64,000 nucleotides of DNA from Streptomyces achromogenes (GTDB lineage Bacteria > Actinomycetota > Actinomycetes > Streptomycetales > Streptomycetaceae), in contig NZ_JAUSYH010000001.1 in assembly GCF_030816715.1 (NCBI RefSeq), positions 2,852,001-2,916,000 on the forward strand, given 5' to 3'. The translations under genes and the position numbers were made by a program. Positions 46,474 through 52,080 of the stretch are shown in pieces. Below the pieces are notes generated by a model that made no database searches, was not told the DNA's origin, and saw nothing but the letters and a program-made list of their open reading frames with translations. Numbering within the stretch: the first letter of the stretch is position 1; every line of letters starts with the position of its first letter.

Positions 46474-46489
46474 ATGTTTACGTAAACAT
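46474..46489. promoter_or_regulatory. LacI-type operator 1 upstream of the frameshifted GH5 gene
   Basis: ATGTTTACGTAAACAT is a perfect 16-bp palindrome with a TACGTA centre, located 88 nt before the start. A closely related palindrome precedes the second GH5 gene (52061-52080), and a LacI regulator gene lies between the two. Confidence 0.7.
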
Positions 46490-46540
46490 CCGCCACCGCA
46501 GGGCCGCCTCGGGGGTGCCGCGGGTCCACCGCGGAGCTCG

Positions 46541-46556
46541 ATGGTTGCGTAAACAT
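46541..46556. promoter_or_regulatory. LacI-type operator 2 upstream of the frameshifted GH5 gene
   Basis: ATGGTTGCGTAAACAT matches operator 1 at 14 of 16 positions and lies 20 nt before the start, 67 bp centre-to-centre from operator 1. Paired sites suggest co-operative or looping repression. Confidence 0.6.
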
Positions 46557-46576
46557 CGTCTCGAAAGGGCACGTAG

Positions 46577-47657
46577 ATGCGCAAGTCCCCCACCGCAGCG
46601 TCCTCCGTCTCCCCCCGCCTGCGCGCCGCCTTCGCCGCGGTCGCCGTCGCCGCCGTCACGGGCGCGACCCTGGCCGGCAGCCCGGCCTCCGCCTCCCCCA
46701 CCGCCCCCGCCTCCCCGGCGCACGGATCCCGGCCGGCCGCCGACACGACCCAGTTCAAGGGCGTGAACTGGGCAGACCCGCGCGACAACTTCGCCGACGA
46801 CTACCTGCAGCTGTCCGGCCTGTCGACCAAGGACACCTACCGGCAGACCTACGCCAAGGCGAGCCGGATCATCGCCGCGTTCCGCGCGAACCTCGGCGCG
46901 AACACCGTGCGGCTGCCGGTCAACCCGTACACGGTCAACGGCGCGTACTGGAAGTCGTACCGCGGAGTCATCGACGCGGCCTCCGACCAGGGCTTCAAGG
47001 TCATCGTCTCCTACTGGGAGGGCACGGGCGCCCAGAAGGACGGCTTCATCGACGACGAGGCCGCCTACTGGCCGATGTGGAACACCGTCGTCAAGACGTA
47101 CAGGAACGACAAGCGCGTCTACTTCGAGCCGATGAACGAGCCGCACGGCTACACGGACGCCCAGTGGGCCGACATCGCGGCGAAGTGGCTGTCGACGTAC
47201 TCCAAGCGTCTTCGTCAGCGGCGCCGGCTACAACGACCACGTCACCACGGTCTGCGCGGACCCGCGCCTGAAGGGCACGTACCTCTCCCTGCACCACTAC
47301 GGTTTCTGGAAGGACTACGCGACCTACGACCAGTGGGTGGCCGACCTGAAGGTGCGCATCGGCGACTGCGCGAGCCGTACCGTCGCGGACGAGTTCGGCG
47401 CCCCGATGACGACCGGTCTGAACTACAACGTGAAGACGCCGGACGACAACTTCGTCAACTTCATCCAGGCCGTCACCGACACCTTCCGCGAGCTGAAGAT
47501 GGGCTCGGTGTACTGGCCGGGCCTGCGCACCGACGACATCTACTCGGTGCAGACCCTCGTCGGCCCCGCCGCCCGCCCCTGGCTGGCCACCACCAACCAG
47601 TCCGGCGCCGACCGCCTCGCCTGGGCCTGGGGCCGCGGCAAGCCGGTCGAGAACTGA
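46577..47657 (+). pseudogene. Secreted GH5 endoglucanase-like gene, frameshifted near 47205
   Basis: Signal peptide (LRAAFAAVAVAAVTGATLAGSPASA) then a GH5 domain: [46 protein letters not shown] and the acid/base Glu in [17 protein letters not shown]. After KWLSTYS the frame is lost; the correct frame resumes as VFVSGAGYNDHV and contains the nucleophile Glu in VADEFGAPM, ending GRGKPVEN at 47657. Against the paralogue at 50461-51945 about five residues are also missing at the junction, so a small deletion rather than a single-base error is likely. As written, the enzyme would lack its nucleophile and be inactive. Confidence 0.85.
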
Positions 47658-47728
47658 CCCCAGGGCGGCCCGTCCACCCCGCTCCCCACCCCCGTCCACC
47701 ACCCCCGCTCCCCCCACTCCCCCCACCC

Positions 47729-47768
47729 CGGAGGCTCCGTCCCGACGCTCGTCGGTGCGGAGCCTCCG
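47729..47768 (+). terminator. Hairpin after the GH5 gene
   Basis: Arms CGGAGGCTCCG and CGGAGCCTCCG pair perfectly, enclosing a smaller stem (CCGAC-GCTC-GTCGG). It ends 28 nt before the next start codon. Confidence 0.75.
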
Positions 47769-49239: not shown

Positions 49240-49361
49240 CCCACGGTCGTACGCGTCCCGCACGACCGGGCGGCCCGGACCTCGCGCCGCGGACCCCCGG
49301 GGAGTGGGCCTAGGCTGTCGTCAGGGCCCGGGAAACAGGGGAAGCAAGGAAACAGGGGATC

Positions 49362-50423
49362 ATGGCGATGGGGGAAAGGTCCAGGTCCGGACGGCCCCGG
49401 CCGTCGATGGCGGACGTCGCCCGTCACGCCGGTGTCGCGCCGCAGACGGTGTCGCGCGTGTCCAACGGCCACACCAACGTCGACCCGGCGACCAGGCAGC
49501 GGGTCGTGGAGTCGATGCAGGCGCTGGGCTACCGGCCGAACGGAGCCGCGCGCGCGCTCAAGAGCGGCCGGTTCAACACGATCGGCGTCATCACCTTCAC
49601 GCTCAGGACGTTCGGGAACACGCGCACGCTCGACGCCATCGCCAAGGAAGCCGCGCTCGCCAAGTACGCGGTCACCCTCATCCCCGTGCCGGACCCGACG
49701 ATGGGCAGGCTCTCCGGTGCCTACGACCGGCTCAGCGAGGCGGCCGTCGACGGGGTGATCCTCGTCTTCGAGGCCCATCTCCTGGACGACGCGGAGTTCA
49801 GTCTCCCGCCGGGGGTGCCGATGGTGGTCGTCGACTCCGACACCGGCCCCGGCTACACCGTGGTGGACACCGATCAGGCGCAGGGCGCCCGTCAGGCGAC
49901 GGAACACCTGCTGGAACTCGGCCACCGGCAGGTGTGGCACATCGCCGGCCCCCCGACCTCGTTCTCCGCGGCGCATCGGGTCGAGTCCTGGCGGCGCACC
50001 CTGGAGGAGGCCGGCGCCGTCCCGCCCCCGGTCCTGTACGGCGACTGGACCACCCGCTCCGGATACCTGCACGGGCTGACTCTGGGGCGGCGGCCGGAGG
50101 TCACGGCGATCTTCGCCGCGAACGACCACATGGCGCTCGGCGTCATGCGTGCCCTGCACGAGCTCGGCCGCCGGATTCCCGAGGACGTCAGCGTCGTGGG
50201 GTTCGACGACATGGAGGAGACCCAGGCTTTCTGGCCGCCGCTGACCACCGTGCGGCAGGACTTCGCCGCGGTCGGCCGGCTCAGCCTGCAGAAGCTGCTG
50301 ACCAAGATCGGCCGGACCGGACCCGACCTGGTCGACAAGACCCTGGTCCCGACCCGGCTGATCGTCCGCGCGAGCACGGGAGCGCCGCCGCCCTCGCCGG
50401 AAGGCGAAGGACGGCGGCGCTGA
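49362..50423 (+). CDS. LacI-family regulator, likely controlling the GH5 genes
   Basis: 353-residue repressor. HTH at about 16-70 (SMADVARHAGVAPQTVSRVSNGHTNVDPATRQRVVESMQALGY) then a sugar-binding core with VFAANDH-like IFAANDHMALGVMRALHELG and VVGFDDMEETQAFWPPLTTVRQDFAAVG. ATG at 49362 follows AGGGG. It lies between two GH5 genes, each preceded by a TTACGTAA-type palindrome, and is convergent with the second. The role of cello-oligosaccharide-responsive repressor is inferred by analogy with CebR-like regulators. Confidence 0.9.
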   Translation: MAMGERSRSGRPRPSMADVARHAGVAPQTVSRVSNGHTNVDPATRQRVVESMQALGYRPNGAARALKSGRFNTIGVITFTLRTFGNTRTLDAIAKEAALAKYAVTLIPVPDPTMGRLSGAYDRLSEAAVDGVILVFEAHLLDDAEFSLPPGVPMVVVDSDTGPGYTVVDTDQAQGARQATEHLLELGHRQVWHIAGPPTSFSAAHRVESWRRTLEEAGAVPPPVLYGDWTTRSGYLHGLTLGRRPEVTAIFAANDHMALGVMRALHELGRRIPEDVSVVGFDDMEETQAFWPPLTTVRQDFAAVGRLSLQKLLTKIGRTGPDLVDKTLVPTRLIVRASTGAPPPSPEGEGRRR

Positions 50424-50460
50424 CCGGTACGGCGACCGGCGCGGTCCTCGGGCGCAGGAG

Positions 50461-51945
50461 TCAGCTCCTGGCCCACTGCTGGTTGGTGCTTCCGTTGCAG
50501 TACCAGACGTCGACCGACGTGCCGTTGCCGGTGCCCGCTCCGGCCGCATCCAGGCACAGCGCCGGGTTCGCGACGCTCGTGACCGAGAGGTCCGCGTTCA
50601 CGTTCCACTGCTGTGCCGTCGCTCCGGTGCAGTCGGAGATGACCACCGGGTCCCCCGCCGAGGCTCCGGTGCCGCCCACCGTCATGCACTTGTTGCCGTA
50701 GACGGTGAGCTGCTCGGCCGCGTTCCAGTTCCACGACTGGTTGCCGCCGGCGTTGCAGTCCCAGAGGTCGAGCTGGGTGCCGTTGGACGTGCTGAAGCCG
50801 GGCACGTCGACGCAGCGGCCGGAGCCCACTCCGCGCAGGACCTCGCCGGGAGGCGCGGGCGGCAGGTTGTTCACGGGCGGGGTCTTGCCGAAGCCGTAGC
50901 CCCAGCGCAGCAGCGCGACTCCGGTGGCGCTGTTGTCCACCAGGTTGCCCTTGGAGTCCAGCGACTCGATCGAGTAGGCGTCGCCGAACCTCAGGCCCGG
51001 CCAGTACACCAGTCCCATCCCCTTGCTGCGGGCGGTGTTCGCCACGGCCGCGAGATACGAGGTGTAGATGTTGCCGTTCCACGCGCCGTAGTTCAGACCG
51101 ATGGTCATCGGGGCGCCGGCCTCGTCGATGATCGTCCGGCCGGCGTACTTGCCGAGGCGGGCTTCCAGGTCGGCGGTCCAGTCCGACTGCTGGGTGTAGC
51201 TGTTCCAGAAGCCGTAGAAGTGCAGCGACAGCAGTGTTCCCCGCAGCGCGCGGGCCGCGCCGACCCCGGTGACGTTGTCGTTGTAGCCGGTACCGCTGAT
51301 CACGACACGACCGCGCGGGACGTCCTTGTGCTGGGCCAGCCAGCCGCTGGTGACGGACACCCACTGGTCCAGGGTGTAGCCGTGCGGCTCGTTCATGGGC
51401 TCGAAGTAGACCCGCGGGTTGTGCTTGTACTCCCGCACCACGGTGTTCCACATCTTCTTCCAGGCGGCCGTGTCGTCGACCAGGCCGTCCTTGCTGGTGT
51501 CGGCCTCCCAGTAGCTGACGATGACCTTGTCACCGTGGGCCGTGGCCGCGTCGACCGTCGCCCGGTACGACTTCCACCAGGTGGTGCCCACGGTCGCCGG
51601 GTTGATCGGCAGGCGCAGCGTGTTGGCGCCCAGGTTCTTCTTGAAGCCGCTCACCATACGGACCGTGGTGCGGTACACCGTGCGGTAGTCGTCGGTCGCC
51701 TTCAGCCCGCTGGGCACCACGGCGTCACTGGCGTAGTTGTCCCTCGGGTCCGCCCAGTTCACCCCGCGGAAGTCACTCGTACCGCCCTTGGGAGCGGGCT
51801 TGGCCGGCGCGTACGAGGCGGCTGACGTCGGGGCGGCCGGCCGGGCGACGGCGGGTGCGGGGGCGGTCACCAACATGAGTGTCGCGCCGAAGCCGGCCAT
51901 GAGCACACTGGCCAGTCTTCTCGACCTCGTCGGGGTCTTGGTCAT
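50461..51945 (-). CDS. Secreted GH5 endoglucanase-like enzyme with CBM13
   Basis: 494-residue exported hydrolase. ATG at 51945 follows GGAGA and gives a signal peptide ([25 protein letters not shown]). The GH5 domain has [19 protein letters not shown], acid/base Glu in [17 protein letters not shown] and nucleophile Glu in [11 protein letters not shown] Pro linker ([13 protein letters not shown]) leads to a ricin-type trefoil ([29 protein letters not shown]). It is paralogous to the frameshifted GH5 at 46577. Probable substrate is beta-1,4-glucan or mannan; the exact specificity is unclear. Confidence 0.9.
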
Positions 51946-52060
51946 GTCGTCTCCAGTGACGGAAATCGCGGGGGCGGAGTGCGGGTTCGTCACCTGAGCC
52001 GAGGCAGTGAGGAACCAGGGTCCGGGTCCGGATACAGGCGCTCGGATCCGTGTGAACCGG

Positions 52061-52080
52061 CCATGGTTACGTAACCATGG
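52061..52080. promoter_or_regulatory. LacI-type operator upstream of the GH5-CBM13 gene
   Basis: CCATGGTTACGTAACCATGG is a perfect 20-bp palindrome 116 nt before the GH5 start. It shares the core GTTTACGTAAAC/GGTTACGTAACC with the sites at 46474 and 46541. Confidence 0.7.

Follow-up and report, generated by a model that had tools for sequence, protein, structure and literature searches.

Two sister LacI-family regulators, two probable operator subtypes and a candidate beta-galactan regulon in Streptomyces achromogenes

Introduction

Local sugar regulators of the LacI/GalR family couple a helix-turn-helix (HTH) with a periplasmic-binding-like domain, carry a TVSR recognition helix and are assigned CG-centred operators with G at -6, so far as the available portions of two surveys describe them (Camas, 2010, PMC2978694; Ravcheev, 2014, PMC4052901). 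The same features recur in two regulators of Streptomyces achromogenes, here called LacI-A and LacI-B. LacI-A is encoded between two genes for secreted glycoside hydrolases of family 5, GH5a and GH5b, within the 64,000-nucleotide stretch of DNA that was analysed (contig NZ_JAUSYH010000001.1, positions 2,852,001 to 2,916,000; hereafter the window), and palindromes lie upstream of both GH5 genes. LacI-B, like the described regulators, stands beside a divergent transporter/hydrolase operon; unlike them, the two paralogues seem to serve a single regulon whose operators are distinguished at base pair 5, and LacI-A lacks an operator of its own. We consider it likely that LacI-A with the GH5b operator and LacI-B with its own operators make up a single two-repressor regulon for a beta-galactan, type II arabinogalactan.

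Among solved proteins the best sequence match is 9nt3 (“Ancestral LacI Transcription Factor,” 1.9e-65), followed by the E. coli lac repressor (3edc and 1jyf, E about 1e-47). The latter sits with a beta-galactosidase gene, as LacI-B does. The operator centre is different, however, Pro-Gln or Ser-Gln is found in place of Tyr-Gln, and secreted polysaccharide hydrolases are among the candidate targets here.

In the published LacI code the residue pair (AA-15, AA-16), equivalent to E. coli residues 17 and 18, corresponds to the operator pair (NT-5, NT-4), AA-16 being the stronger determinant (PMC2978694, available text). Known endo-beta-1,6-galactanases are classed in GH5_16 and GH30_5 (PMC12751061, available text). 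The GH5_16 members are a precedent for GH5 enzymes on beta-1,6-galactan (PMC3526467; PMC12751061), and that subfamily held fungal sequences only in the 2012 classification, as far as the accessible part of the article goes (PMC3526467). A targeted literature search, outside which most subscription papers lie, found no Streptomyces LacI galactan regulator and no Streptomyces regulon for type II arabinogalactan; GTTTACGTAAAC is printed nowhere in the literature searched and GGTTACGTAACC only in two unrelated papers. The main text of Ravcheev (2014; PMC4052901) never uses the word Streptomyces.

Two Palindrome Subtypes Before the GH5 Genes

The palindromes are very probably docking sites of two sister LacI repressors. 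Compared base by base they form two subtypes, GGTTACGTAACC at GH5b, whose linked regulator is LacI-A, and GTTTACGTAAAC at GH5a, the subtype of LacI-B. GH5a (46577..47656, + strand), a secreted GH5 protein with a Pfam Cellulase match, is preceded by two sites. O1 (46474..46489, ATGTTTACGTAAACAT) has T at -5 and A at +5, the LacI-B subtype, and lies about 95 bp upstream of the ATG at 46577; O2 (46541..46556, ATGGTTGCGTAAACAT), about 28 bp upstream, is a hybrid of one G-type and one T-type half. The spacing between them is 67 bp. GH5b (50461..51945, - strand) encodes a secreted GH5 protein with a C-terminal ricin-B (CBM13-like) module and is convergent with LacI-A (49362..50423, + strand; recognition helix APQ-TVSR). 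Its operator (52057..52084; like O1 and O2, assigned to neither strand), about 125 bp upstream of the ATG at 51945, is a perfect 28-bp palindrome with the core ATGGTTACGTAACCAT, which has G at -5 and C at +5. The fifth base from the centre is where the perfect palindromes of O1 and GH5b differ.

The first-pass annotation had reported perfect palindromes at 46474 and 52061 and a near copy at 46541, upstream of the two GH5 genes, and all three are indeed there. The GH5b palindrome is longer than first stated, CCATGGTTACGTAACCATGG (52061-52080) being the middle of CCGGCCATGGTTAC/GTAACCATGGCCGG. In two relatives, G225 and G109, an O1-like T-type site stands at the equivalent place before GH5a (exact in the former, with one mismatch in the latter), and a hybrid second site is present in both as well.

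Occurrence in the Genome and the LacI-B Locus

Two copies of TTACGTAA occur in the window against 0.02 expected, a number reached in none of 100 shuffles. Across the one-contig genome of 9.17 Mb, TGKTTACGTAAMCA has three exact copies and two sites each at one and at two mismatches, and the reversed pattern, which served as control, has three at up to two mismatches. This whole-genome count speaks against chance and excludes a common unrelated repeat, the latter an objection that the first-pass annotation had itself raised.

Three of the exact and one-mismatch sites are those in the window; the others form a pair, 46 bp apart, at C1:8342994 and C1:8343040. This pair, the third exact copy of TGKTTACGTAAMCA with its one-mismatch twin, precedes the LacI-B gene, 5.4 Mb from LacI-A; it separates LacI-B (L010:10158-11204) from a divergently oriented cluster that encodes two permeases and a solute-binding protein, together with a GH42 beta-galactosidase and a ricin-B-bearing GH30 protein. 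A site precedes LacI-B or its divergent neighbour in most LacI-B loci, and in nine of the 11 LacI-B/transporter intergenic regions with two sites the spacing is 43-46 bp (35 and 56 bp in the remaining two), an arrangement that could reflect two divergent promoters or cooperative binding. LacI-A and LacI-B both score above the cut-off for PF00356 and PF13377/PF00532, the N-terminal HTH and the C-terminal periplasmic-binding-like domain. The genome has 39 LacI-family matches at E<=1e-20, counting the query; of the 38 others LacI-B is the nearest paralogue of LacI-A, at 62%, and the next reaches 48%.

Distribution Across Genomes

The exact motif is found in 25 of 101 Streptomyces genomes and the reversed control in none. 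A LacI-A/B match (E<=1e-90) is present in 36 of the 101, which include all 25, and none of the 65 genomes without such a match has the motif. These 25 genomes contain 33 exact sites, every one of which could be placed: 32 adjoin LacI-B, transporter, GH30 or GH5 genes; the last, in G004, adjoins a gene for a GH35 beta-galactosidase of uncertain exact start, with a binding-protein-like gene divergent from it. Sites with one mismatch precede another GH35 and a GH43 in G064, the latter followed by another GH30, and a GH43 with a galactose-binding-type module in G252. Such co-distribution is what LacI operators would show, as the sites had first been annotated. That the palindromes are unrelated to these LacI proteins and reflect some other regulator, a structural element or chance is very improbable: perfect 14-bp palindromes are in themselves no rarity (16 in the window) and LacI binding is inferred from sequence, yet motif and regulator occur together in 25 of 36 genomes against 0 of 65, and 33 of 33 placed sites adjoin one functional gene set.

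The GG..CC motif TGGTTACGTAACCA is present as a single copy in 14 of 392 genomes, without exception some 270-300 bp ahead of the match to the GH5b catalytic domain. LacI-A (>=91% identical) is encoded in ten of the 392, all within these 14, and each of the ten has exactly one GG..CC site, before GH5b. The remaining sites (<=1 mismatch) of the other nine LacI-A genomes are T-type, save the GH5a hybrids of G225 and G109 and one G-type site in G322.

Recognition Helix and Operator Base Pair 5

The helix reads GV-APQ-TVSR in every LacI-A and GV-SSQ-TVSR in LacI-B (once SAQ), and TVSR is present in every LacI row listed. For the helix residues at which LacI-A and LacI-B carry Pro and Ser, respectively, the LacI code names the operator base pair that sets the two subtypes apart; the positions of the apparent Pro/G split agree with the published code. 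Among 65 LacI rows with a site (a further 13 of the 78 rows have none and lie outside this count), the symmetric G operator accompanies 16 of 18 with Pro at AA-15 and none of the 47 without; the site filter demanded TG at -7/-6, T at -4 and A or G at -2, and those bases are accordingly no test. One of the two Pro exceptions is the window row, in which both subtypes tie and the GH5a site was picked, and the other is a Cellulomonas row (L252) with an unequal-ended GG..CC site and a hybrid.

Pro is found at the same helix place in Nonomuraea (API) and Cellulomonas endophytica (SPI), and the sites upstream of their GH5 genes are ATGGTTGCGCAACCAT in the first and CTGGTTGCGCAACCAC with the hybrid ATGGTTGCGCAATCAT in the second. 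On the LacI tree the LacI-A clade is joined by Nonomuraea (95/78) and then by GH5-linked regulators of other genera (96/78), so that those of Kribbella, Arthrobacter, a Propionibacteriaceae bin and Nonomuraea all group with LacI-A; the Cellulomonas LacI stands at the base of the LacI-B clade.

Weighing the Two-Repressor Regulon

Several observations weigh against this picture of two repressors and one regulon. Promoter scans gave no -10/-35 match near the GH5a or the GH5b site. No TTACGTAA palindrome, and so no autoregulatory site, occurs in the 450 bp upstream of the LacI-A start, as the first-pass annotation had remarked of this gene. Eleven of the 36 LacI-A/B genomes have no exact motif, the four inspected (G013, G018, G064, G083) having one-mismatch versions, and the G-type site of G322 (C166; L164), also with one mismatch, could be assigned to no gene. 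Two LacI rows without Pro (L111, L208) have a hybrid site with one G-type half. The Nonomuraea and Cellulomonas Pro rows (L212, L252) are flagged as long branches of unsure placement, and the tree holds only two changes to Pro, with which the independent-pair sign test is powerless. Pro would then have arisen about twice, and its association with G is suggestive and not statistically decisive. Five residues that we take to be the sugar-pocket contacts of E. coli LacI (R197, W220, N246, D274 and F293, E. coli numbering) are common to most of the eight paralogues compared, and the pocket is for that reason uninformative about the effector.

A further such point is the fate of the GH5b operator where LacI-A is missing. 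In 11 of 27 Streptomyces GH5b loci the genome has no LacI-A and the 16-bp GG..CC core is kept at 100%; these 11 genomes (four plus seven) all have a LacI-B-type gene whose best match to LacI-A is 56-59%. At LacI-A loci the site is kept in 16 of 16, one with a single changed base. After removal of duplicates (L197, equal to L153; L183, L184 and L196, equal to L148, L149 and L145), the surroundings of the operator are conserved alike with and without LacI-A (0.867 and 0.845), and the 4-bp outer flanks score 0.969 in the 16 LacI-A loci against 0.795 in those without. LacI-A was probably lost at least once, because G140, otherwise without it, keeps a C-terminal remnant beside GH5b (L151:11682-11753, residues 329-352, 75% identical) and because LacI-A-lacking genomes are scattered over a weakly supported GH5b tree, in which five of 28 inner branches are well supported. 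Survival of the core in such genomes suggests that LacI-B takes over the GH5b operator, and the core would be read there either by LacI-B or by something else. Among the paralogue loci read in four LacI-A-lacking genomes (L167-L182, 16 of 37 matches) no other Pro-type LacI was found, the helices there being SSQ, SKQ or SHQ.

Carried further, the intact core in these 11 genomes and the G140 remnant would allow LacI-B alone to control all sites in trans, GG..CC included, LacI-A being a secondary or decaying copy. The flanks argue against this, being conserved too in the 16 LacI-A loci, as if LacI-A adds constraint, and so do the LacI-A proteins, which are full-length or nearly full-length matches and 88-98% identical to that of the window; we judge control by LacI-B alone unlikely. 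A dedicated regulator-operator pair, as first annotated, survives in part: the LacI-A/GH5b combination is conserved in ten of ten genomes, but the motif also appears to be the LacI-B operator and 11 genomes keep the site without LacI-A. For GH5a such a pair is doubtful. Exclusive pairing is thus probably too strong a claim, and overlapping specificity the better reading.

The Two GH5 Genes

On a GH5 tree of 36 rows the GH5a clade (n=20) has a Shimodaira-Hasegawa-like approximate likelihood ratio test (SH-aLRT) value of 100, and all 20 members have a site (<=1 mismatch) in the 600 bp upstream. No such site is present in a separate Streptomyces clade (n=6, SH-aLRT 99), whose best matches show five to six mismatches. 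The first division into near and distant GH5 genes was made after the sites were known and across a thin E-value gap (1.8e-97 vs 1.1e-96); the tree upholds both clades. Three homologue loci were left out (two from G098, one from G044). GH5b groups with genes of Leifsonia, Nonomuraea, Kribbella and Cellulomonas, so that GH5a and GH5b stand in separate GH5 clades and are not recent duplicates. The first-pass description of them as paralogous is to be read with that correction, both being GH5 proteins of Pfam Cellulase. A second correction is that GH5a is frameshifted. Relative to G225 and G109, where the frame is open, GH5a of the window has a 14-bp deletion at about 47205 and is otherwise 95% identical. 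The frameshift falls before the second catalytic Glu, and this copy is probably a pseudogene with a truncated product, or an assembly error.

The same annotation had taken LacI-A for the dedicated regulator of both genes, with GH5a and GH5b as secreted glucanases and cello- or manno-oligosaccharides as possible effectors. Proximity in the window, the Cellulase match of both genes, the endoglucanase-like fold of GH5b and the single G-type half of O2 would all suit that view. However, O1 is of the LacI-B subtype, and the position of GH5a elsewhere speaks against LacI-A: GH5a and LacI-A are 1.7 kb apart in the window, about 8 kb in G225 and G109, roughly 7 to 70 kb in five further LacI-A genomes and 2.5 Mb in G090, no GH5a-type gene was found in the LacI-A genome G107, and GH5a-type genes adjoin LacI-B in seven genomes without LacI-A (G011, G013, G083, G139, G140, G188, G221). 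The closeness of GH5a to LacI-A appears to be a local feature of the window. With the other site-bearing genes also resembling galactan enzymes, one LacI-A repressor for two glucanases is improbable, slightly more so than LacI-B acting alone.

The structure of GH5b does not settle its substrate. E131 and E220 of the catalytic domain are invariant in 46 sequences and are presumably the catalytic pair. An AlphaFold2 model (predicted local distance difference test, pLDDT, 93.5) matches GH5 structures at Z up to 25; the nearest solved folds, at 20-25% identity in the top rows, are beta-1,4-glucanases (endoglucanases), which weighs against a galactanase, and the best phmmer match reaches 1.6e-5. 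A fold search for the GH5 subfamily of GH5b returned distant endoglucanases only, a result in which the missing galactanases prove nothing.

Beyond Streptomyces, 80 of 276 relatives were kept in the search for GH5b-like genes. In Kribbella such genes belong to LacI/permease/permease/GH5/binding-protein operons, and in Leifsonia they have GH42 and transporter genes nearby; in Arthrobacter, Nonomuraea and a Propionibacteriaceae bin a LacI gene is next to them. Microbispora has a more distant homologue, with LacI, transporter and GH42 genes beside it. Related CG-centred sites are present at many of these loci, not all.

Galactan Context and Proposed Mechanism

Galactan is favoured over glucan because the other genes linked to the sites encode GH42 and GH35 beta-galactosidases and proteins resembling a GH30 endo-beta-1,6-galactanase and a GH43 exo-beta-1,3-galactanase. 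The GH30 protein of the LacI-B locus (L010) aligns with 24td over residues 26-519, including the NEP and SE glutamates (3.5e-41), and the second GH30 of G064 matches the same entry at 5.7e-53. The best solved matches of the G064 GH43 are 3vsf (8e-143), which we take to be a Clostridium exo-beta-1,3-galactanase, and 7bys (“Galactan 1,3-beta-galactosidase”). With these E-values the GH30 genes of the regulon match the enzyme described in PMC13431644 (available text) over nearly the whole length; they are distant from it, add a ricin-B module and have a predicted activity only. The terms “regulat” and “gene cluster” are absent from that article. On this context the glucanase label for the GH5 genes is probably wrong, their partners pointing to type II arabinogalactan, and cello- or manno-oligosaccharides become less likely effectors.

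From sequences, their distribution, synteny and covariation, which are observed directly, we infer binding, repression, effector and substrate as follows. Both LacI proteins would act as dimeric repressors sitting near target promoters, LacI-A (49362-50423) at GH5b through the GG..CC operator at 52057-52084, and LacI-B, through GTTTACGTAAAC operators, at GH5a, at its own gene and at the transporter/GH42/GH30 genes divergent from it. Basal extracellular GH30, GH43 and GH5 enzymes would release galacto-oligosaccharides, to be imported by the ATP-binding cassette (ABC) system and cleaved by GH42 and GH35, and an imported galacto-oligosaccharide would release LacI-A and LacI-B from DNA. The operator split at base pair 5 would follow Pro (LacI-A) or Ser (LacI-B) at recognition-helix AA-15; cross-binding is likely because that split is incomplete. 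We put forward more tentatively, as a possibility that we hold to be less probable than its opposite, that the split has been caught part-way, at one helix residue and one base pair with the GH5a hybrids read by both proteins, and that the widespread group of actinobacterial GH5 enzymes headed by GH5b represents an endo-beta-galactanase that has gone unrecognised, and no cellulase.

The regulation is of an ordinary bacterial kind, with an instructive detail of specificity. A GH5 group spread over several actinobacterial families gains a testable function, on galactan and not on glucan, and Streptomyces gains a candidate regulon for type II arabinogalactan. The two paralogues, with one helix residue, one base pair and both clean and hybrid operators in one genome, also form a compact test of the LacI code provided by nature.

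Other Features of the Window

A GH43-like gene with an AbfB (CBM42) module (53097..54527, + strand), arabinofuranosidase-like and context only here, lies near GH5b in G225 and G109 also and is absent from the other seven mapped LacI-A loci. Upstream of it the 11-mer GAGGTATTGAC occurs twice, at 52662-52672 and 52891-52901, in opposite orientations with 218 bp between. Both copies are kept in G109 (L143:6395, 6623) and were not found in L142 of G225; the pair may be a second regulatory element or matching -35 regions.

Directly before LacI-A, 48892-49240 holds an oxidoreductase-like frame, seemingly truncated, with a stop codon in the stretch tried. Another LacI-family gene (8274-9294, - strand) appears split, with separate matches at 8503-9294 and 8274-8510; both it and the GH5a deletion may represent pseudogenes or assembly errors. 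The site at 9509 is TTGTGAGCGCTAACAA, which in our estimation resembles the symmetric lac operator.

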